Assembly: GCA_033439795.1 (NCBI GenBank)
Contig: JAUTDP010000001.1
Coordinates: 2,480,001 to 2,544,000 of the forward strand
Reading direction: 5' to 3'
Length of the DNA stretch: 64,000 nt
Origin: Sordaria brevicollis
Lineage: Eukaryota; Ascomycota; Sordariomycetes; Sordariales; Sordariaceae
Shown: positions 30,343 through 43,326 of the stretch, one piece after another
How the letters are laid out: every line of letters starts with the position of its first letter
Numbering within the stretch: position 1 is the stretch's first letter
The notes under the pieces: generated by a model
The model's database searches: none
Seen by the model: the letters and a program-made list of their open reading frames with translations, nothing else
What the model was told of the DNA's origin: nothing
Made by a program: the position numbers and the translations under genes

Positions 30343-31905
30343 TCAAATCTCAATCACGATCCTCCCCACGCCCCTACTAACACAAGCCAACATCGCCCCC
30401 TCCTTCTCCTCAGCACTTAATGCCGTTCCCCTATGTTCCACCCTCCCCTCCTTAAGGCCAACTTTACAAGTCCCACAGTTCCCTACACAACAACTCCCCT
30501 CGACTTCCTCATCGCCAAACTCCCTTTGCAAAACCTCCAACAACGTCTCTTCCTGTTCCACCTTCAGCGTCCGAGACTCCTTCCGATTAGCAACCACAAC
30601 CTCGAACGGATCACCACTAATATCAGCCTCAAAAGCCTCAAAGTGTACTTCCCCCTCCGGCACCTGATATTTCTTCACCTGCTCAGCAGCATCCAGCATC
30701 AAAGACCTCGGACCGCAAAAGTAAAGCATCGAGTTCCACGGCAACTTTTTCACCACGTCCTCTTCGATGTTGAGCCTCTGGCCCTGGGATTTATCGTATA
30801 TCTTGACAGTGCCCGGAAGTAACTTGTCGAGCCGCTCGCGGAAGGGTATGTCATCCGCGCTTGACCTCACGGCGTAGTGCAGCTCGCACGAGACGTGGAT
30901 ACTCTGAAAATGTTCGAGCGAGGTCAAAAACGCCGTGAGGCCGACGCCACCGGCTACGAAAATGTGGTGGCTGATTCCGGCGGCCTTCATCCCGCTTGTC
31001 CCCTGCGGCAAGGCGTTGGTGAAGTTTGCGCTTACTTGCATGGTGTGGCCCTCAAAGACTTGCGAGTGCAGGAACTTGGAGCCGCCGCGCGAGTTGGGCT
31101 CGAGCGCGATGGCTAGTTGGAACTTGTTGACGCTGGCCGAGGGAGAGGGAAACGAAGGGCCGGTGACGGAGTACGCCCGGACAAGACCATTCCCCAGCTT
31201 AACCCGCGCGTGCACACCCGGTTTGAGCAAGATGCTCTTCTCATCCCCCTCGGGAGGAACGATGGGGTCGACAGCTTCCAAGACCAGCGAAATGATCCTC
31301 CCGGTCTCTTGCTTCCGTTCCACAACCCTAAAATCCCGCCACCGCTCCACCCCCTTCTTATTCTTCTTCTTCCTCGCTTCCGCCCTCGCCACGCGCGCCT
31401 TGAACGCATCCCTACTTTCCGCCCCCAACTGTTCTATAGAAGCCAACTCGGCATTCATCTCCTCGTTTTCCTGATCCCGATGCAAGTACTCTTGTATCCT
31501 CTCAATCGTCCATTGGGGATGCGGCCTGCTGACCAGCCGGATCTCATCCCCCGCTTGCACGTACCCCGGTCTTAAGACGCGGTAGTACCACCCCGTGCGG
31601 GAGAGCTTCCAGGTTAGGGGCGCGAATTTTTTGAGTTGGAAGCGGTGGTTGAGTTTGAAGCATGGTTGACGGGGGAGGGAGACTTCAAGAAGCAAGCAGG
31701 AGTCCGGGTTGGTGGAGAGAGCGGAGGGGGGGCCGACGAGCATGGTGTCCCCGATACAAACGTTGCGCTCGTTCATGTGAGCGGTGACGAGGTTTTCGCC
31801 GAAACCGCCGGGGACGAAAGATGATGCGGCGGAGGGGTGTTCGGATGCCCAGAGGGGGTAGTGGGAGGAGCAGTCTTGTACCAGTAGAGCATAAAGTTAG
31901 TCTAG

Positions 31906-33084: not shown

Positions 33085-33370
33085 TAGGGTCGACATACCG
33101 TCTTCTGCCCTTTAGCGGAGGTTGTCTGTAGACGATCTTCCTCGCTCACTACTCCTACCAAGAATATTACCATATATAACAATTCGAGCATTACCGACAG
33201 TAGCAAGGTGAATAAGCCGTCCACCAAAACTGAGATTATCAACAACAGCAGCCCTCAGAGCGGCATCAAATCCAGCAACAAGACTCCTATCACCAACATC
33301 ACCACACTGTCCCCCACCCCCAACAGTACTGGGCAGGGTTAGAAGACCCCTTTTACGTTAATATTAGATC
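33085..33370 (+). pseudogene. Broken, inverted fragment of the first Gag-like gene
   Basis: Read on the plus strand, the frame from about 33,122 gives segments that match the Ser/Thr/Asn-rich middle of the protein encoded on the minus strand at 34.5-36.6 kb. Shared pieces include 'NNSSITDS', 'SSPQSGI' and 'KTPIT', in the same order and spacing (parent bases about 35,790-35,510). A TAG at 33,340-33,342 interrupts it, matching sequence continues after the stop, and a frame change lies near 33,120. Only about 285 bases remain; the Gag-like domain and C-terminal repeats are missing. It is a partial duplicate in opposite orientation, not a working gene. Confidence 0.8.
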
Positions 33371-34511: not shown

Positions 34512-36635
34512 TCACCAGCGACGGGGGTCATTAAGTCCCATCTTCTTTCTGGTCACCCTCAGGAAGGGGCACTTCTCTTCGACCTCCACCCAATACGAAC
34601 AAAAGGTGTGAGGGCCAAAATCTCTGTACCAGTCCGCCCGCGCCTTGGGGTCAAGACCACCGACCCAGTCCGGAATGTCATGAGGCTTTGGCTGCCTCGC
34701 TGGGGCAGCAGCAGGGAGAGCAGCATACTGCTGCCTCACAGCGGGCGGGAAGTGACTAACCGAAAGTGAAGACATGACCGAGATAGTCTTCGCGTACTGA
34801 GTGTTTTGGAAAACGCAAGCAGGCGGGTTGACAATGCTCTGCTCGTCCTCGGCCACATTGGGATCGAGCCAAGCGGTCTCATCGGTGCCGACCTGAGGGA
34901 TACCATCAAGCCATTTGTAGACATGCTTGTTGCGGCTCGCAAGGAAGGCGGCCAGGATGCTGGCGTCATCGACGGGTTTGGGCCCATTCTGAGGGCCAAT
35001 CTTGGGACCGTTGTTCCCGTTGATTGAAGGACGACCAGCATCCGGTGAAACCTTCTGGGCATCTTGACCGGAATGCTGAGGACCGTTGTTGCCATTGAGG
35101 GCAGGACGAGCGCCATTTAGCGGACCGGTGTTGCTGTTGATCGAAGGACGAGTTGCGTTGGGAGCGACCTTCTGACCAGCATTCTTGACGGCATTCAGAG
35201 GACCATAGTTGCCGTTAATAGGACCAGCGCCATTCTGGGGAACCTGTTGAGGACCCTTGTGTGTGGTGTTTTGAGCACCGATGTTGACGTTATTGGCGAC
35301 ACGACGAGGACCAAAGCAACTAACGTGCTGAGGAGTGTTGCCGGTTTGGTTACCAGTTTTGGCGACCGAGGAGGAAGGCTTCATGTTGGAGGGTCTGTAT
35401 GCGAATGGGTTGAATGCCTGGGCAGCAACCTTGGGCCTGTAGGCAAGTGGGTTGAAAGGTTGGGAAGCAACCGTGGGCCTGTAGGCGTTTTTGTTGAAAG
35501 GTTGGGTAGAAAAGGCAATAGGGGCTTTCTGGCTCTGTTTGGCACCGTTGGGGGTTGGGGACGGTGTGGTGATCTTGGTGATGGGAGTCTTTTGGCTCGA
35601 GTTGATGCCGCTCTGAGGGCTGCTGATGTTGTTATCAGCTTTGGTGGATAGCTTATTGACATTGTTGCTGTCGGTGATGCTAGAATTGTTGATTGCGGCA
35701 GTGTCTTTGATTGGAGTGCCGACGATCGAAGAAGGCTTGAGAGTCTTCAAATTGTTGGCTTCAGCCGGAATGTCCTCATCGAGAATAGATGTAGCAGAAT
35801 GAACAGTCTTGGTGATGCGAGTGTTATTGCGAGTCTCGTTCGGAACGATGGTCTCGGTGTGAGCGCCCCTTTCCTTGGGAGTCTTGGTCTGGTCGACAGG
35901 AGCAGTTTGAGCACTCTTTTTCTCGTGAGTCTTGATGACCTTGACTTCAGTGCCCTTCTCCTCGGTAGTCTTGATGGGGAAGATGTCCTTGGAGGTATCA
36001 GTGATGATCTTTTGCTCACTGGCCTTCTTGGCAATCAATGAAGCCACACCCTCGGTGAGACAGCCGGTGTCCTTGTTGTGAAGAATCATCTTGACCCAGA
36101 CGTCATCGTAGGAGCTGATGCCCTTGAGCAGCAACATGTCCATGAACTCGTCAGAGACATCGAAAAAGACACTCTGAAGGCGGCGACGCAGCCACAAGGC
36201 CCTGTCCAGGAAGGCGTCGAGGTTGGGAAAGTCGGAATGCTTAATCTCGGTGAGCTCCTTGACAAGGCGAAACATGTGCGCGGCAGAAATATTGCTGTAC
36301 CACCGAACCACAGCGTCGAAAAGGGAACGCGGGTCGATGGGATTCTTGGCGGTTTTGTCAATGAGACCCATGGCCTCAAGTTTGCTCATGATCGGCTTAA
36401 TGCTGGTGGCGATCATGGTGTACGCCAGAATCTGCTTCATCTTGAAGTTCATCTGAACGCCGGGTGAGGAGGTGGACACAGGAGCCTTCTGCTTGCCCAG
36501 GACGATGTCGTCGAGGTCGTGGTAGATGAGGTGAGAAATGAGCGCATCATACCACGCTTCATAAGCTTCTTCGCCGGTCAAGTCCGGCAGCTTGGGCAAC
36601 TGAGGCAACTCAGCGTTGGTGGCTTTGGCGGACAT
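34512..36635 (-). CDS. Gag-like protein 1 (Ty1/copia-type Gag domain with repeat-rich tail)
   Basis: 707 residues from the ATG at 36635; the frame is open further up to 36887, but that part is leader-like. Residues about 9-215 carry a copia-type Gag/UBN2-like domain: 'LPDLTGEEAYEAWYDALISHL', 'SLFDAVVRWYSNISAAHMF', 'LVKELTEIKHSDFPNLDAFL', 'DRALWLRRRLQ'. A Lys/Thr-rich linker follows. Then comes a triple repeat of about 15 residues with core PFN..AYRP (bases about 35,510-35,390), and an Asn/Gly/Pro region with repeated PSINxNxGP units. No zinc knuckle, protease or polymerase motif is present. It is the largest of four paralogues in tandem here. In retroelements this domain builds the capsid; here it stands alone, so a host role is inferred. 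Confidence 0.8.
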   Translation of the reverse strand: MSAKATNAELPQLPKLPDLTGEEAYEAWYDALISHLIYHDLDDIVLGKQKAPVSTSSPGVQMNFKMKQILAYTMIATSIKPIMSKLEAMGLIDKTAKNPIDPRSLFDAVVRWYSNISAAHMFRLVKELTEIKHSDFPNLDAFLDRALWLRRRLQSVFFDVSDEFMDMLLLKGISSYDDVWVKMILHNKDTGCLTEGVASLIAKKASEQKIITDTSKDIFPIKTTEEKGTEVKVIKTHEKKSAQTAPVDQTKTPKERGAHTETIVPNETRNNTRITKTVHSATSILDEDIPAEANNLKTLKPSSIVGTPIKDTAAINNSSITDSNNVNKLSTKADNNISSPQSGINSSQKTPITKITTPSPTPNGAKQSQKAPIAFSTQPFNKNAYRPTVASQPFNPLAYRPKVAAQAFNPFAYRPSNMKPSSSVAKTGNQTGNTPQHVSCFGPRRVANNVNIGAQNTTHKGPQQVPQNGAGPINGNYGPLNAVKNAGQKVAPNATRPSINSNTGPLNGARPALNGNNGPQHSGQDAQKVSPDAGRPSINGNNGPKIGPQNGPKPVDDASILAAFLASRNKHVYKWLDGIPQVGTDETAWLDPNVAEDEQSIVNPPACVFQNTQYAKTISVMSSLSVSHFPPAVRQQYAALPAAAPARQPKPHDIPDWVGGLDPKARADWYRDFGPHTFCSYWVEVEEKCPFLRVTRKKMGLNDPRRW
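35390..35510 (-). repeat. Three tandem in-frame repeats, core PFN..AYRP
   Basis: Three consecutive units of about 45 bases coding related 15-residue pieces (QPFNKNAYRPTVAS, QPFNPLAYRPKVAA, QAFNPFAYRPSN). They lie in the tail of Gag-like protein 1. Confidence 0.85.
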
Positions 36636-37249
36636 GTTGAGTGATTGTTGGAGTTTTGTTGACGGGAGGATTGTCGAGAAAGAGTTGAAGGTGGGGTAAT
36701 GAAGTGGAAGTGACTTGAAGTCAGGAAAATGTAGACGGGTAGTGTAGACGTGGTATGAGGTGAAGTGCCTGTAGGCGTTGGTGTGAGATTGCAGTATTGC
36801 TTGACGATGGATGTCTGAAGACGAGAGAAGTGAGATCAGAAGAAGTGTGGTGTTTTTGTTGTTGCTAGGGGAAAGATTCGATGGCAAGAAATTGTGCGAG
36901 GGGGTTTTGAAGGAGGGGGGCCATGGTCCAAAACTCGCAAAGTGGGCGAGTCCACCACCCGTCTATTGACGTGCCGCAACAATAGGAGAGATGGCTGGGG
37001 ATCATGCAGAATTCCTCGTTTGCCTTTCATCCCAAGTCGAACAGGAGTCATATTTTTGATCTGTGCACGGGCAAAGTGCTGGTCTCTGGCAGAGAGGGAA
37101 GGTGCGGTTCGTCTTGTCGTGACTGCCTTGAACTTTCCGCAAGTCAATTTTACACCAGATGAAACAAGGAGTGTAAAATACACCTGGATGAATACGGACA
37201 CAATATATAGAGTTACCCAGTCTAGAATAAATAGTCCAAACCCCCTCAT
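36636..37249. other. Upstream region of Gag-like gene 1
   Basis: Contains the probable leader and promoter. A frame continuous with the gene extends to 36887 but has leader-like composition. No terminal repeat recognised. Confidence 0.4.
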
Positions 37250-37436
37250 GATCTGCGGGAAATCGAGCAACTGGGCACCGGCTTCCATGTCCCACGCCTC
37301 GATGTCGGTATCGTAGCTACCGGAGACAAGTCTACCGGACGCGCTGTCTACATTCAGAGAGCGGACGAGGTAGCCATGGGCCTACATCTAGCGCGCACAC
37401 TCGCCAGTGTTGGTGTCCCACACGTGTAGGTCGCCT
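37250..37436 (-). pseudogene. WD40-repeat gene remnant
   Basis: On the minus strand the sequence reads 'DLHVWDTNTGECAR', two TAG stops (37390-37388 and 37384-37382), then 'AHGYLVRSLNVDSASGRLVS' continuing with 'GSYDTDIEAWDMEAGAQL'. This is the pattern of one WD40 blade end and one full blade (GH-x-SGSxD-xxxxWD). No start, no further blades downstream and the internal stops show it is a remnant. A short in-frame piece near 37,740-37,780 ('THLTSLVTLEKP') could be an earlier blade. It may derive from a WD40 protein of the NLR type common in these fungi; that link is inference. Confidence 0.75.
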
Positions 37437-38341
37437 GGCTACGGCGATGAGTAACAAAAATGAGAGTCGATACCATTGCGTACGGTCATGTTTCGAGAGG
37501 TGTTATCTTTCCGGTGACATACCCTCAAAGATCACGCCGCGAACCAATGACAGGGAGCAACACCGAGTGCAGAATTTGCAAAGGTTTCCATCCCATGTGG
37601 AAGCAGCTCGAAAAGGAGGTCGTCGGCACCGAAGGAGTCCTGCTCTCCGAACACCGAGTTTTCATCCCATCCTTCCCAGTCTCCCATCGCGCGGTATCCT
37701 ATTGTCCCTCACCCACATCAATAACACACCCTTGTCCTAGGGCTTCTCGAGGGTGACCAGCGAGGTAAGGTGCGTCATTTGACCTAGGTGTGCGTTTGCA
37801 AGTTGAGTTTCCTGTGGGTCATGGAACCGATGTATTGTAGGAGGGCATGCGGGCGGGGTTTGGCTGATAACGAGTGAGTGCGTGTGAGGAGCTTGAATAG
37901 GATAAGCTAGTATGGATACCTTTCGGTTTTGGCATCGTCTTGAGGGTGACGCAGGTGGTGGACGTATATCATCTTTTGAGGTGTGGTGTGTGCAAGACGT
38001 CAGATGAAGCTGAGGTGAGAGGAGAATTTTCATCGACACTGGGAAACAACTGGAAGTGACGAAAGGTCTTTCCTCCGAGCCCGCGGTTCGATCGAAGGCC
38101 AAAGTGTACGTCGGCGGTGTACATGGCGTAGATAGCCGTCTTGTAGGTCTATCACTTCAAGCTGATATCCAAGCAATGGAAGTCGTGAAATGGAGAATGG
38201 TTAACCGCATGACAAGAAGTGAGCAAGTGAATGAAAAGTGATGACTTTCGAGGTTGATCCCCCGCAGATGGGACTGGGCGCGAAGAGGCATGGTAGGGAC
38301 AGTAATGTATATATATGGTGCTTCCTCAACCCGGCGCTGAC
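37437..38341. other. Intergenic, possible further WD40 debris
   Basis: No intact gene. One short piece resembling a WD40 strand near 37,740-37,780 on the minus strand; otherwise nothing recognised. Confidence 0.35.
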
Positions 38342-39315
38342 TTAACGACGAGAAGCGTAGTGCTTGGTAACGCCAGTGTGTCTCTGATGATGACCTTGGG
38401 CGTTGCCGCGTCTCTTGTTGTTTTGCCGCCTCCTGTGGTTCCTGTTGTCGCTGTGTTCGGTCGGCTGGGCACAGTTGCCACGGACGTTCCGTTCTCGGTT
38501 CATGATCGCTTCGTCGGCGATCAAGCCACGAATTGCTCTAATGACCGTGTCGAAGTCATGGCCTTCTCCATACTTGAGACGCATGTTCATGGAGATTGTC
38601 CAGGTCGTATGGCGGGTACGTAGGCCTTGTATCACAAAGCTCGCCTGCACATCCCCAGGGATCTCCAGCTTGACTGCCCGGAGACGGTGATGGAGCCACA
38701 GAACCCTCTCAAGATACTCCTTGAGGTCCGCGAACTGATCAAGATCGATGTTGCTAAGTTCCTTCAGGTACTTGCACTTGAGCTTGTATGGGACTTCAGT
38801 GTTCCAGCGTTTGATTGCTTCCCACAGGACCATCGGGTCTTTGTTTGTGACTTGCTTGTGCTCATTATATAGGGGCACCCAAAAGCCTCCTTCCTCAAGG
38901 TCGTACGAAATCGGTTGGATGCCGAGAGAGATAATTCGAAAGGCACAGTAACTTCTTTGCTGGAAGACCCAAAGGTTGTGTTTGTGAATGGGGTCGTCTT
39001 CATCCCACCACTTGGGAGGACTCTCCGTACCGAAAATGAAACCAACGAGGTCGAGTGCATAGAGGATATGCTGGATCTGGTCGCTCCAATCATTGAAACT
39101 CTCGTCGTCTCTCAGATCCGGAATTGGATATTTGAAGCCTTCATCAAATGGGTTCTTCCAGCCAGGCCACAGCTCTTCGGCCTCTTCGGAAGAAAGTCTC
39201 CCATAACAGTCATAACTGATTCGTGACAACCGCGTCAGCCAAAATGTCACCCAAATGATGGAGGAGGCGTGCAAATGAAAATATGTGGTCACCTGTCGAC
39301 TGAAGAAGCGGTCAT
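38342..39315 (-). CDS. Gag-like protein 2 with Arg-rich tail
   Basis: Exon 1 (39315-39293, 23 bases) and exon 2 (39215-38342) are joined over a 77-base intron (GTGACCAC donor, GGCTGACG branch, ATCAG acceptor); 298 residues. The Gag-like domain shows 'IPDLRDDESFNDWSDQIQHI', 'FIFGTESPP', 'VLWEAIKRWNTEVPY', 'YLKELSNIDLDQFADLKEYL' and 'ERVLWLHHRLR', aligning block by block with the other three genes of the cluster. The last 50 residues are rich in Arg, Asn and His (NRNHRRRQNNKRRGNAQGHH), a likely nucleic-acid-binding tail like that of Ty1 Gag. No pol sequence follows. Intact frame and clean intron argue for an expressed gene. Confidence 0.78.
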
Positions 39316-39620
39316 GGTGACGCGGGCGATACGGCTATGGCGATTTTGAACGTTTTGTGATGTGTGGAATGGACGATGTAGTGGGATGTGAAGTGGAGGA
39401 GCAACAAGCTCATCACTAATTCTCCAGACTTCCGTAACCAGCGGTGAGCCCCGGTAGTTAGGCTAGTTGACCCGTAAACGCAAAAAATATTTCAATATAA
39501 TGGCCATTGCGGCAAAGGGGTTGGTTGATATGCATATAAAAACTAGCTTCCGGGAGTGATACGCAGCTGAGCAGCTAAGATATGCGGGTAGGCCCGCTAA
39601 GACCTTAGCGTGGATTGACG
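39316..39620. promoter_or_regulatory. Spacer between Gag-like genes 2 and 3
   Basis: 305 bases holding the promoter of gene 2 and the 3' end of gene 3. No recognised repeat. Confidence 0.4.
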
Positions 39621-40775
39621 TTAACCCTGAAGCCATCGCCCTTCGGCCGTTATTTGCTGACGGAAAGCGCACCTTTCGCAAAAGACGCCCCCGTCGAATT
39701 CTCGTTGATAAAAATCAAGCGAGTAGGAGTCAATCTGGAGTTGGCCGTTATCCATCATGCCCTTCACGATCTCCTCTACAAGCGCGTCAACTCGGCTCTC
39801 GTGGAGCTTCTCGATGCGCCCCTGGTCCTCCAACTGGCGCCGGACTTGACGACGAGCTTCGCGAAGGTCTTTCATGGCCTGTTCTCTTTTCGCCATTATC
39901 ATGGGGCTGTGGAGCCTGCATCTGATTGCTCTTTCGACTTCGTCGGCGGTGCTGAATGTTCCCTTATCCAATTCCACGTGGAGGTAAATCTTCCAGTACA
40001 CATCAAAACCTTCCAGGCCGGTGATCATGGTGGTGGTGTATTCCCGATCGGAGAGCGGAATGCCCAGCCGCTCAAACCGCATACAAATCCAGTTCCCTCT
40101 AGCAAGGTAAGCGTCTACATCTAAGCCATGCTGGCAGGGGCACATGCTGATGAACTCCTGGCGTAAGCGGTCCCTGTACGAAAATGGGCGGTCGGCATCC
40201 CAGCTATGGATGGCGTCCCAGAGGGCTTTAGGGTCGCGGTCGTTGGCGAGGTCAGCAGTCCAATGCTGCGAGTCACGGAACTCCGGCCAGACCGGACCAA
40301 TGCTGTTGAAGATCATGTTGAAGGCGTATTGTCTTCTTTCGGCAAAGGACATTTGCTTCAAAATGGCTGCAAGAATGTGGCCTTCCGCGCCTGGGAACAG
40401 CGCGTTGCTAGTGATGAAAGGGTTGAGACCGCAGTCGTAGAGGTTGACCACGACGCTGGATCTCCAATCTTCGAAATTTTCATCACCTCGAAGGCCCGGA
40501 ATGAGCGAGAGGGGCTGGACACAGAAGTCACATTCCGAATCGTCATCATCCCATTCATATTTAGACAATAGCACTTCGGGTCCCTGATGAAAAGTGGGTG
40601 GGGCGATGCTGGTGCGGGAGATGGTTAGCCTGATTTCAGTGCAAAGCAAAGTTACGAGGATTAAGGGAGAACGACGATCTCTTTGAGATTGCTCCAGAAA
40701 TTCGAGACGAAGAACGTAAGATGACATGTTGTCAAATGGAACAAGTGGTCACCTTTCGGTTTTGGAAGCAGCCAT
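39621..40775 (-). CDS. Gag-like protein 3
   Basis: Exon 1 (40775-40753, again 23 bases) and exon 2 (40608-39621) are joined over a 144-base intron with the same GTGACCAC donor as gene 2; 336 residues. The first exon codes MAASKTE, close to MTASSVD of gene 2. Domain blocks are 'IPGLRGDENFEDWRSSVVV', 'RRQYAFNMIFNSIGPVW', 'ALWDAIHSWDADRPF' and 'DVDAYLARGNWICMRFERLG'. The C-terminal part differs from its relatives: a charged coiled coil (EQAMKDLREARRQVRRQLED) and then an ordinary acidic/polar end with two Cys, without the Arg-rich tail. It is the most diverged member, which may mean a changed role. Confidence 0.76.
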
Positions 40776-41032
40776 CGTGACCGAGGCGCGAGAAGTCGGG
40801 TCAAGGCAGGATATTGTTGAGGGAGAATGAGATACGTGATTGAAGACAAAGTCATTTACTATTAGTAAAGAGATAAAGAAGGCTCGCAGATATGACTCGG
40901 ATGAGATGTTCGGAACGGAAGTAGTCTGTTCCATGGTCGATTCCATGCTGTCGGCAAGAAGCCTGTATCAACGGAGCAGGCGGGTCAGCCAAGCGGACCC
41001 TCAGAGATGCTTGCTTCGCTAGTGCCCTGTTA

Positions 41033-41852
41033 TTAGCGACGACCGCGTCGCCTCGAACCACCGCGATGTCCGGAAGATTGCCCATTGTTGTTGCGGGGCC
41101 TGTTGGCCTCTTGTTGCTCGCGTTGGTATTCGTCTGCCTGGCGATCGAAAATGTATGTGTGCTGTCTAATTCGAGAAATTAACCCTTGCAGGTCCAATTC
41201 ATCGTACTGCGCTACCAACAGAGTTTGCAACGACCTGCTGGGGTGCTGAATAAGACCTCCAAAGAGGCATGTTTTCATCATTTCGTCCGAAATTGGCATA
41301 TTGAGACCCCCAAGGCGCTGTTGAAGGTATACTGCTCTATCTAGCAGCGCATCGATGCCCTTGAACTGACGATAATCGATGTTGGTGAGCTCCTTCAGCA
41401 ATTCCCGTTGCCGGAAAGGACCAATTTTGTAATACCAGCGTTGTAACTCGTCCCATAGCAGTTTGGGATCGTAGCGTGCCAATTCAAGGTGAAGGTAGCA
41501 CCCGCGGATGTGAACATTCTTTCCGCTCAACGAAAGATTGAACACTCGTGTAGATGACATTCCAAGCCTGGAACTTTCTGCCATGAAACTTTGCCAGCAG
41601 CGTCTTCACATCTTCGGGCGTATTGCCGACGGGGGGTTTCTCAGTGCCCTTGATGAACCCGTCCAAGCCAAGCTTTTGGAGGTATCGTTCAGCGAAAAAC
41701 TTCCACATCTGAAAATTCTTTTCTCCTCGGAGCGCCGGAATTTCGGGGGCGTGTTCTTCGTCTGATGAGGAATCGTACATCGCGACCGAGTTGTCAATGT
41801 TTCTATGAAGGAAGCAGTCTGCTTTCAAAGTTAGCATACCTCGAGAGGGCAT
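41033..41852 (-). pseudogene. Gag-like gene 4, frameshifted
   Basis: Two overlapping frames together cover one Gag-like protein. The upstream frame (41852 to about 41,490; the likelier start is ATG 41780) gives 'IPALRGEKNFQMWKFFAERY' and 'FIKGTEKPP'. The downstream frame (about 41,520 to 41033) gives 'LLWDELQRWYYKIGPF', 'LLKELTNIDYRQFKGIDALL' and an Arg/Gly-rich end (GHRGGSRRRGRR). The frames differ by one base, and no intron with usable splice sites fits the overlap, so I read a single-base insertion (or two-base loss) near 41,490-41,530. A sequence error is the main alternative. Apart from the shift the domain is complete and close in layout to gene 2. Confidence 0.72.
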
Positions 41853-42354
41853 AGGATATTTAGTTGGGAAAACGGAGGAACGTCATGAACCAGTGTCAGG
41901 GTCAACGTACATTGAGGAGCGTGCCAGTTGACTTCACAAGTCCAAAGAATTGAGGAGCGTAGGAAAGTTATATGCTTATATTCGGGTCACAGCGAAATAG
42001 AACAGTTGATATATTTCCGGGAGGTATTTAACGAGGGTGGACGTGATATTGTAAGTCATGACGAAAACTCAAGTGTTTACACGTAAAAGTGTGAAGTGTT
42101 TCAGTTGCAGGGAATGCGGGAGGTGTTGTTTTTCGGAAAGGTACCGAAATGCACGAACGGTACGTACTGCTTCCAGCCAATCATATAGCGCGATGACTTT
42201 ACAAGGCTGAGATGTGGGGCGCAAAAGTTTCCTGGAGACGGCGACGAAATGCAGAACAAATGGTTCCCATCATCGCTTCAATCTGCAATCCCCAAAGCAA
42301 ACCCGATATTTCCACATTTGTCAACCACACATTTGTGTCCAGATAACTTCCAAA
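41853..42354. promoter_or_regulatory. Divergent region between Gag-like gene 4 and rrp7
   Basis: About 500 bases between divergent starts; no clear motif. Frames open into rrp7 from 42214 but the better start is 42355. Confidence 0.4.
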
Positions 42355-43326
42355 ATGGCGCCTTCACCACAAACGATAGGCGAATTCAGCGTCCTCCCGA
42401 TTTCGATCCCTCCCGTCCCGTCATTCCCTCGCAATGTCGTCCACTATCTCTACGTCCGACGAAACGCCCCCAAGATCCCCACAGCCAACGACTCCAGGAG
42501 TCTCTTCCTAGCGAACGTCCCCGTCGACAGCACAGAACTTCACCTGCGCGCACTTTTCGCATCACTAGTCGGCGCCGGTCGTTTCGAGAGCGCTTCGTTC
42601 GAGGATGAGAGGAAGGAGGCCGAGGCCGTTGCCGCCGCCCTAGACGCCGCGCCCGCACAGGCAGTACGATTACTAGCTGCCCACGGCAAGAAGAGAAAAC
42701 GCGAGGACCAGGAGGCTGCTGAGAGAGCCGAGGAAGAAGCTGCCGCCCGACTACCCAGCACATGGAGCCGACCACTACGAAAGAGCGGCAGCACTGCCGT
42801 TGTGCTGCTCGCCGACGAGAAGAGCGTCCAGCAGGTTCTGAAGGCCATCGCGAAGGTTCACAAGTCGAAGAAATATCCTACATGGGGCGGCGACGGAAAC
42901 ATCGTGGCCGAGCGCGTACCACAACTCGGCTCCGTCTGGCTCAAGGCGCACAACCAGCTTTCCTACCCCGACCGCGACCAGCTACAAGCCGCCGTGGACG
43001 CATTCTCGACCATGTTCGCCAGGAGAGAAAGGGAAGCGGCCGAGATTGCCAAGAGGCTGCGCAACGAGCCGGACGAGGACGGTTTCGTCACGGTGACACG
43101 CGGTGGAAGAAGCGCCCCGGCCTCTACCAAGGAAGCCGAGGAGGCCAAGAAGAAGATGATCGAGAAGGCGGAGAAGAAGAAGCAGGAGATGACGGACTTC
43201 TACCGGTTCCAGATGAGAGAGCGCAAGAAGGCCGAGCAGGAGGAGCTGGTGAAGAGGTTCGCGGAGGACAGGCAGAAGTTGGATGCTATGCGCCAGAAGC
43301 GCGGCAAGTTTGTCCCCGAGGCGTGA
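42355..43326 (+). CDS. rrp7: Ribosomal RNA-processing protein 7
   Basis: Single exon, 323 residues from ATG 42355 (context AAAATGGC); an earlier in-frame ATG at 42214 would add 47 residues of leader-like sequence. An RRM-like N-terminal domain ('RSLFLANVPVDSTELHLRALF', later 'GSTAVVLLADEKSVQQVLKA') is interrupted by a charged insert of about 60 residues, as usual for Rrp7. The C-terminal Rrp7 domain has 'DEDGFVTVTRGGR', a long Lys/Glu helix, and ends in 'DFYRFQMRERKKAEQEEL...LRQKR/GKFVPEA' style (here 'LDAMRQKRGKFVPEA'). Rrp7 works in the UTP-C/CURI complex in the nucleolus, needed for 18S rRNA processing. Confidence 0.93.
   Translation: MAPSPQTIGEFSVLPISIPPVPSFPRNVVHYLYVRRNAPKIPTANDSRSLFLANVPVDSTELHLRALFASLVGAGRFESASFEDERKEAEAVAAALDAAPAQAVRLLAAHGKKRKREDQEAAERAEEEAAARLPSTWSRPLRKSGSTAVVLLADEKSVQQVLKAIAKVHKSKKYPTWGGDGNIVAERVPQLGSVWLKAHNQLSYPDRDQLQAAVDAFSTMFARREREAAEIAKRLRNEPDEDGFVTVTRGGRSAPASTKEAEEAKKKMIEKAEKKKQEMTDFYRFQMRERKKAEQEELVKRFAEDRQKLDAMRQKRGKFVPEA

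Follow-up and report, generated by a model that had tools for sequence, protein, structure and literature searches.

A host gene family very probably descended from Ty1/copia Gag in Sordaria brevicollis

The window analysed here, a stretch of 64,000 nucleotides of Sordaria brevicollis DNA (C1:2480001-2544000; genome of 53.1 Mb in 27 contigs), carries on its minus strand a cluster of four homologous genes, G1-G4 (34512-41780), with one common capsid (CA) domain. These genes very probably belong to a host gene family descended from the Gag protein of Ty1/copia retrotransposons. Such an origin without pol had been proposed in the original prediction, made from the letters of the sequence, and was supported on three counts: the predicted fold, a profile matching decayed copia Gags, and the finding of neither a reverse transcriptase (RVT_2) match closer than 1.2 Mb nor long terminal repeat (LTR)-like repeats around the cluster.

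The G1-G4 cluster

The genes and their introns are as follows (NTD and CTD, N- and C-terminal domains of CA).

36635-34512, minus strand: G1, one exon, 707 aa
38342-39315, minus strand: G2, exons 39315-39293 and 39215-38342, 298 aa, CA NTD and CTD with a basic tail
39216-39292, minus strand: intron of G2, from the gene model matching B0T20DRAFT_8755
39621-40775, minus strand: G3, exons 40775-40753 and 40608-39621, CA NTD and CTD with a longer C-terminal tail
40609-40752, minus strand: intron of G3, from the gene model
41033-41780, minus strand: G4, frame-broken, CA NTD in 41780-41487, CTD and arginine-rich tail in 41605-41036

The four genes are much more alike than chance would allow. When the whole genome was searched in six frames, the G2 query detected G1 (E = 5.6e-13), G3 (3.0e-12) and the second frame of G4 (6.7e-9), and the G1 query detected G2 (4.8e-13), G4 (2.6e-11) and G3 (5.8e-10). 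With G3 as query, matches to G2 and G1 were obtained and none to G4 at E ≤ 0.01. The two overlapping open frames of G4 served as separate queries and were never joined. These searches and the motif positions confirmed the predicted set of four same-strand genes with common blocks, including the F-I-x-G-T-E-x-P-P block in genes 2 and 4 (FIFGTESPP and FIKGTEKPP, respectively). The middle and later blocks had been expected in all four genes; the L-W-D/E-A-like block was indeed present in variants (LFDAVVRW, LWEAIKRW, LWDAIHSW and LWDELQRW), but G3 departs at the later ones (QEFISM and LARGNWICMRF). No near-identical copies of G1, G2 or G3 were found in the genome by the six-frame searches.

Three intact frames, some of them with introns, were recovered as had been predicted, G1 having one exon and G2 and G3 one intron each, with G4 being frame-shifted. 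The spliced G2 product was 100% identical over 298 aa to B0T20DRAFT_8755, the NCBI model of S. brevicollis. The start of G3 was placed at the ATG at 40775, and the NCBI model B0T20DRAFT_8767 begins at 40946. The introns of G2 and G3 lie at the same position, after 23 coding nt, with the donor GTGACC in both, and the 5' ends of the two genes align at a score of 35, a value reached by none of 350 random segments (null maximum 27). The common intron points to duplication at the DNA level and not to retrotransposition. An intron was also considered for G4 and rejected, since the blocks aligned with G1 are separated by 43 nt for 12 residues, which is too short for an intron and indicates a frame shift. 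A possible start of a fifth gene near 37.9 kb, with 15 bases identical to G3, was not claimed, as 1 of 336 null segments was equally good and ten pairs had been compared.

In G1 the CA domain (NTD and CTD) occupies residues 1-208 (36635-36012) and is followed by a 499-aa tail, P/A/N/T-rich in composition, which ends with DPRRW. The NCBI model B0T20DRAFT_388517 (897 aa) reads beyond the stop at 34512 into 34369-33115 and was set aside; the 707-aa product was preferred because the six relatives of G1 described below all terminate at DPR[H/Y]W. The end of the NCBI model falls within an inverted copy of part of the G1 tail (33136-33360, plus strand; G1 residues 302-375), with 85% identity across 150 nt. 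The tails of G2 and G4 are basic, with 13 K+R versus 3 D+E in the last 50 aa of G2 and 9 K+R versus 2 D+E in 30 aa of G4.

Capsid fold and relationship to Ty1/copia Gag

Structure models of G1 and G2 showed the copia-type CA fold with NTD and CTD; the lack of a capsid fold, named in the original prediction as counter-evidence, was thus not observed. The fold-search lists for both models were headed by copia and Ty1 CA, with PNMA2, MOAP1 and Arc also listed, Arc and PNMA2 being placed below Ty1 and Copia CA in the G2 list. The CTD of G2 superposed on the structures of Ty1 p22/p18 and Drt2 (PDB 7nlg-7nli, 9rxy) at 2.5-2.7 Å.

A profile built from the cluster and four G1 relatives matched eight loci representing seven decayed copia elements (E 1.8e-15 to 4.2e-8), two of the loci belonging to one element; these loci had first been drawn in by G6, a dispersed family member described below. 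In the controls, none of 72 reversed frames reached E = 1, and the best of 400 shuffled frames gave 2.2. The matched Gag frames carry stops and the signature of repeat-induced point mutation (RIP), and in six of the seven elements they are followed, on the same strand and at 3018-3258 bp, by a match to RVT_2 (PF07727). No RVT_2 match was found downstream in the seventh element (C27:2749533). Four other copia gag loci were found by PF14223, and the strict profile gave E-values of 2.4e-4 and 0.0069 for L001 and L002, and no match at E ≤ 1 for L003 and L004. A Ty3/gypsy origin was not indicated, because the profile matches sit upstream of RVT_2, the copia-type reverse transcriptase, and Arc and PNMA2 rank lower in the fold list.

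The anticipated match to known Gag families was not borne out at the curated Pfam cut-offs. No scanned member exceeded the cut-off of a copia Gag model, the best PF14223 (Retrotran_gag_2) match reaching 14.3 bits versus a cut-off of 27. Sub-threshold matches were obtained for PF14223 in G4 and one C12 gene (E 0.02-0.03) and for PF13961 (DUF4219) in G8; no PF14223 match was seen in G1 or its relatives. A sequence search of the PDB returned nothing but a dynein light chain (E = 0.17). No CCHC zinc knuckle was found in G1-G3 or in G4's second frame, and Ty1 Gag is likewise not known to carry one. The sub-threshold Pfam matches, together with the weak Foldseek E-values of the G1 and G2 models, speak against descent from copia Gag and would agree with an unrelated helical protein family merely resembling capsids. 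Such a chance resemblance is nevertheless scarcely credible in view of the profile matches to Gag frames upstream of copia reverse transcriptase and of copia and Ty1 CA standing at the top of the fold lists.

In a viral structure library, no match to the G1 model was found at E ≤ 0.001. The top match, BFVD A0A3G5AHH0 from Sylvanvirus (Foldseek probability 0.99, E 0.2), is an uncharacterised giant-virus protein which may have a copia-like capsid fold.

Search for a mobile element around the cluster

The original prediction had recognised neither pol nor LTRs near the genes. This held for reverse transcriptase, as none of the 79 genomic RVT_2 matches lay within 1.2 Mb of the cluster (the nearest being 1.26 and 1.30 Mb away), and for LTR-like direct repeats longer than 49 nt, none of which was found at 33-43 kb outside the internal repeats of G1, although repeats below about 65% identity could be missed; among the pol parts, the search was for reverse transcriptase, not for protease or integrase families. 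A 49-nt direct repeat pair in this region corresponded to the gene starts of G2 and G3. Flanking LTRs and pol remains, which would mark ordinary dead copies, were not found by the RVT_2 and direct-repeat searches.

Gag-only non-autonomous elements exist, and the cluster might accordingly hold the Gag genes of a mobile element, alive or recently dead, with its pol at another site. This is very improbable given that LTR-like repeats and near-identical genomic copies were not detected and that G2 and G3 carry introns. The genes also show no RIP damage, whereas the copia Gags are heavily damaged: the RIP index ranged from -0.28 to -0.99 for 16 family members and from +0.27 to +1.58 for 11 copia gag loci.

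The wider family

The cluster had been presented as a group of four; four members are indeed located here, but they are not the whole family. Twelve further members were identified at four other loci, giving at least 16 at five loci, and all such counts are lower bounds.

C12: G5, intact 662-aa frame with a disordered tail, detected with the G1 query (E 2.6e-6)
C1:1320354-1321148 (L019/L027): G6, 265-aa frame, detected with the G1 query (E 0.001)
C8:741281-750287 (L044, L028): six capsid-like frames on both strands of a 9-kb stretch, five with only the NTD
C12:3081538-3095728 (L046, L047): four NTD-only frames, of which C12a is split into two frames

The strict profile matched 10 of the 12 with E-values of 2e-13 to 0.0021. 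The remaining two, L028:18-494 (E 0.035) and L046:4945-5202 (0.32), are weak by this profile, and their membership rests on links to neighbours (2.1e-4 for the former; 1.0e-6 and 7.6e-5 for the latter). One C12 gene gave a direct match to a decayed copia Gag (E 1.1e-4). Nine of the twelve match the NTD alone; no CTD frame of at least 20 aa was detected in their vicinity, and no CTD-only member was seen. G6 opens with a strongly hydrophobic stretch (Kyte-Doolittle mean of 2.37 over 19 residues), after which comes its capsid domain. Its identity to the copia Gags detected in the genome is 18-24%, and it grouped with them in the tree (96/94), in which G1, G2, G3, G5 and G8 were not resolved and long-branch warnings were raised.

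Conservation of G1 and retention of the family

Scoring of 7989 candidates revealed six relatives of G1, among them proteins of N. crassa, N. tetrasperma, N. intermedia and Pseudoneurospora amorphoporcata. They are intact, 475-580 aa long, alignable in CA and tail, and not accompanied by pol. Identity to S. brevicollis G1 was 56-66% in CA and 32-53% in the mid-tail. The difference between CA and tail was tested for 4 of 21 pairs (p 6e-6, 0.003, 0.003 and 0.31), the non-significant value being that of N. crassa versus N. tetrasperma. As the coding DNA of S. macrospora and N. crassa is reported to be about 89-90% identical (PMC2851567), G1 seems to be fast-evolving. Its presence in relatives such as Neurospora suggests that it is probably in use by the host.

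The genes had been described as old and kept, which is borne out for G1 only, by its six relatives. For G2 and G3, none were found outside S. brevicollis in searches that need shared 5-residue words, and G4 is frame-broken. These observations on G2-G4, together with the split frame of C12a, weigh against a working gene family and would be expected if G1 were the sole real gene, with G2-G4 and the NTD-only frames being drifting old copies. Such an explanation by mostly non-functional remains is improbable, though less so than a mobile element. G2 and G3 are both intact at about 25% mutual identity, with spliced annotated models. The C12 paralogues gave dN/dS values of 0.50, 0.55 and 0.34, a constraint which may partly predate capture; between the G1-G3 paralogues dN/dS was saturated. 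A neutral, substitution-only simulation of G1 CA left 52 of 2000 frames open at 56% identity.

Possible function

Capture of the gene may have been followed by tandem and dispersed duplication, which would have produced several kinds of member: G1 and G5 with a disordered tail, G2 and G4 with a basic one, G6 with a hydrophobic segment at its N-terminus, and the C8 and C12 clusters with the NTD alone. Two-domain members would self-associate through CA-CA contacts into oligomeric scaffolds or small capsid-like shells, as suggested by the two intact capsid lobes, the basic tails of G2 and G4 and the retention of G1 with its conserved last motif. The basic tails could take over RNA binding from a nucleocapsid, partners might be recruited by the G1 tail and its conserved end, and the NTD-only proteins might modulate assembly. 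The copia origin and this mechanism, taken jointly, are about evenly balanced between true and false. A still broader picture, of a capsid gene system of copia origin run by the host in Sordariaceae, with at least 16 members in S. brevicollis not affected by RIP, five loci and several architectures, is tentative.

The chief rival to the scaffold is restriction of copia, in which host capsid genes poison particle assembly by co-assembly, like Ty1 p22 and Drt2, with NTD-only proteins acting as dominant inhibitors. The NTD-only clusters favour something of this kind, and a lone CA-NTD as an inhibitor or regulator is a possibility raised in PMC12530519. However, the specificity of Drt2 is reported to depend on few residues, and the 18-24% identity of G6 to the genome's copia Gags makes easy co-assembly doubtful. 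Moreover, 78 of the 79 RVT_2 copies contain stops, which leaves little to restrict, yet G1 has been kept. Drt2 and p22 are CTD-only, whereas the members found here have NTD and CTD or the NTD alone, and G6 is not near-identical to the copia Gags found. The divergence from the copia Gags found and the decay of nearly all reverse transcriptase copies disfavour restriction as the reason for G1 retention; overall, restriction is considered rather unlikely.

Comparison with known capsid genes

The Drosophila Copia capsid (PDB 8vvw, 8s41; PMC11835246) has the same NTD and CTD fold over nearly the entire domain, but it belongs to a complete element, mobile and equipped with pol and LTRs, unlike the S. 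brevicollis genes, whose tails also differ. Ty1 p22/p18 and yeast Drt2 (PMC10951436, PMC12530519) are likewise fungal and derived from Gag of the copia superfamily. Drt2 is described as a CTD fragment of its own species' Gag, whereas the present family comprises the whole CA or the NTD alone, is very diverged and includes G1, which is common to Sordariaceae. Animal Arc, PNMA and RTL are also host capsid genes without pol, but are described as derived from Ty3/gypsy (Metaviridae) Gag (PMC11011659). The matches of the copia-type family to Pfam PF14223 and PF13961 remain below the curated cut-offs.

Among the matches listed in the open-licence literature, no title or abstract beginning describes a copia-capsid gene family of filamentous fungi, and the words 'gag', 'capsid' and 'retrotransposon' are absent from PMC10684091 on Neurospora lineage-specific genes. 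The domesticated capsids known so far derive mostly from animal Ty3/gypsy elements; Drt2 is a fungal case of copia type, found within a single yeast species. In filamentous fungi, a copia-capsid family of several members, one of them also in Neurospora, would make the fate of captured capsids testable in easy genetic models, and the NTD-only clusters would offer a natural test of the lone CA-NTD as an inhibitor or regulator. The survival of the family where copia elements are RIP-damaged allows host retention to be separated from element survival. If the proposal is true, the second great LTR superfamily has had its capsids domesticated as a family of genes, in which RNA-carrying shells are accompanied by free NTDs tuning assembly or blocking transposons.

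Neighbouring sequences

Between G1 and G2, a WD40-like fragment was noticed at 36836-37381 on the minus strand (PF25173, E 3.8e-5, far below the cut-off). The cluster is flanked by ordinary genes, encoding a MOSC/ferredoxin-type oxidoreductase (30346-31896, minus strand) and RRP7 (42211-43323, plus strand).
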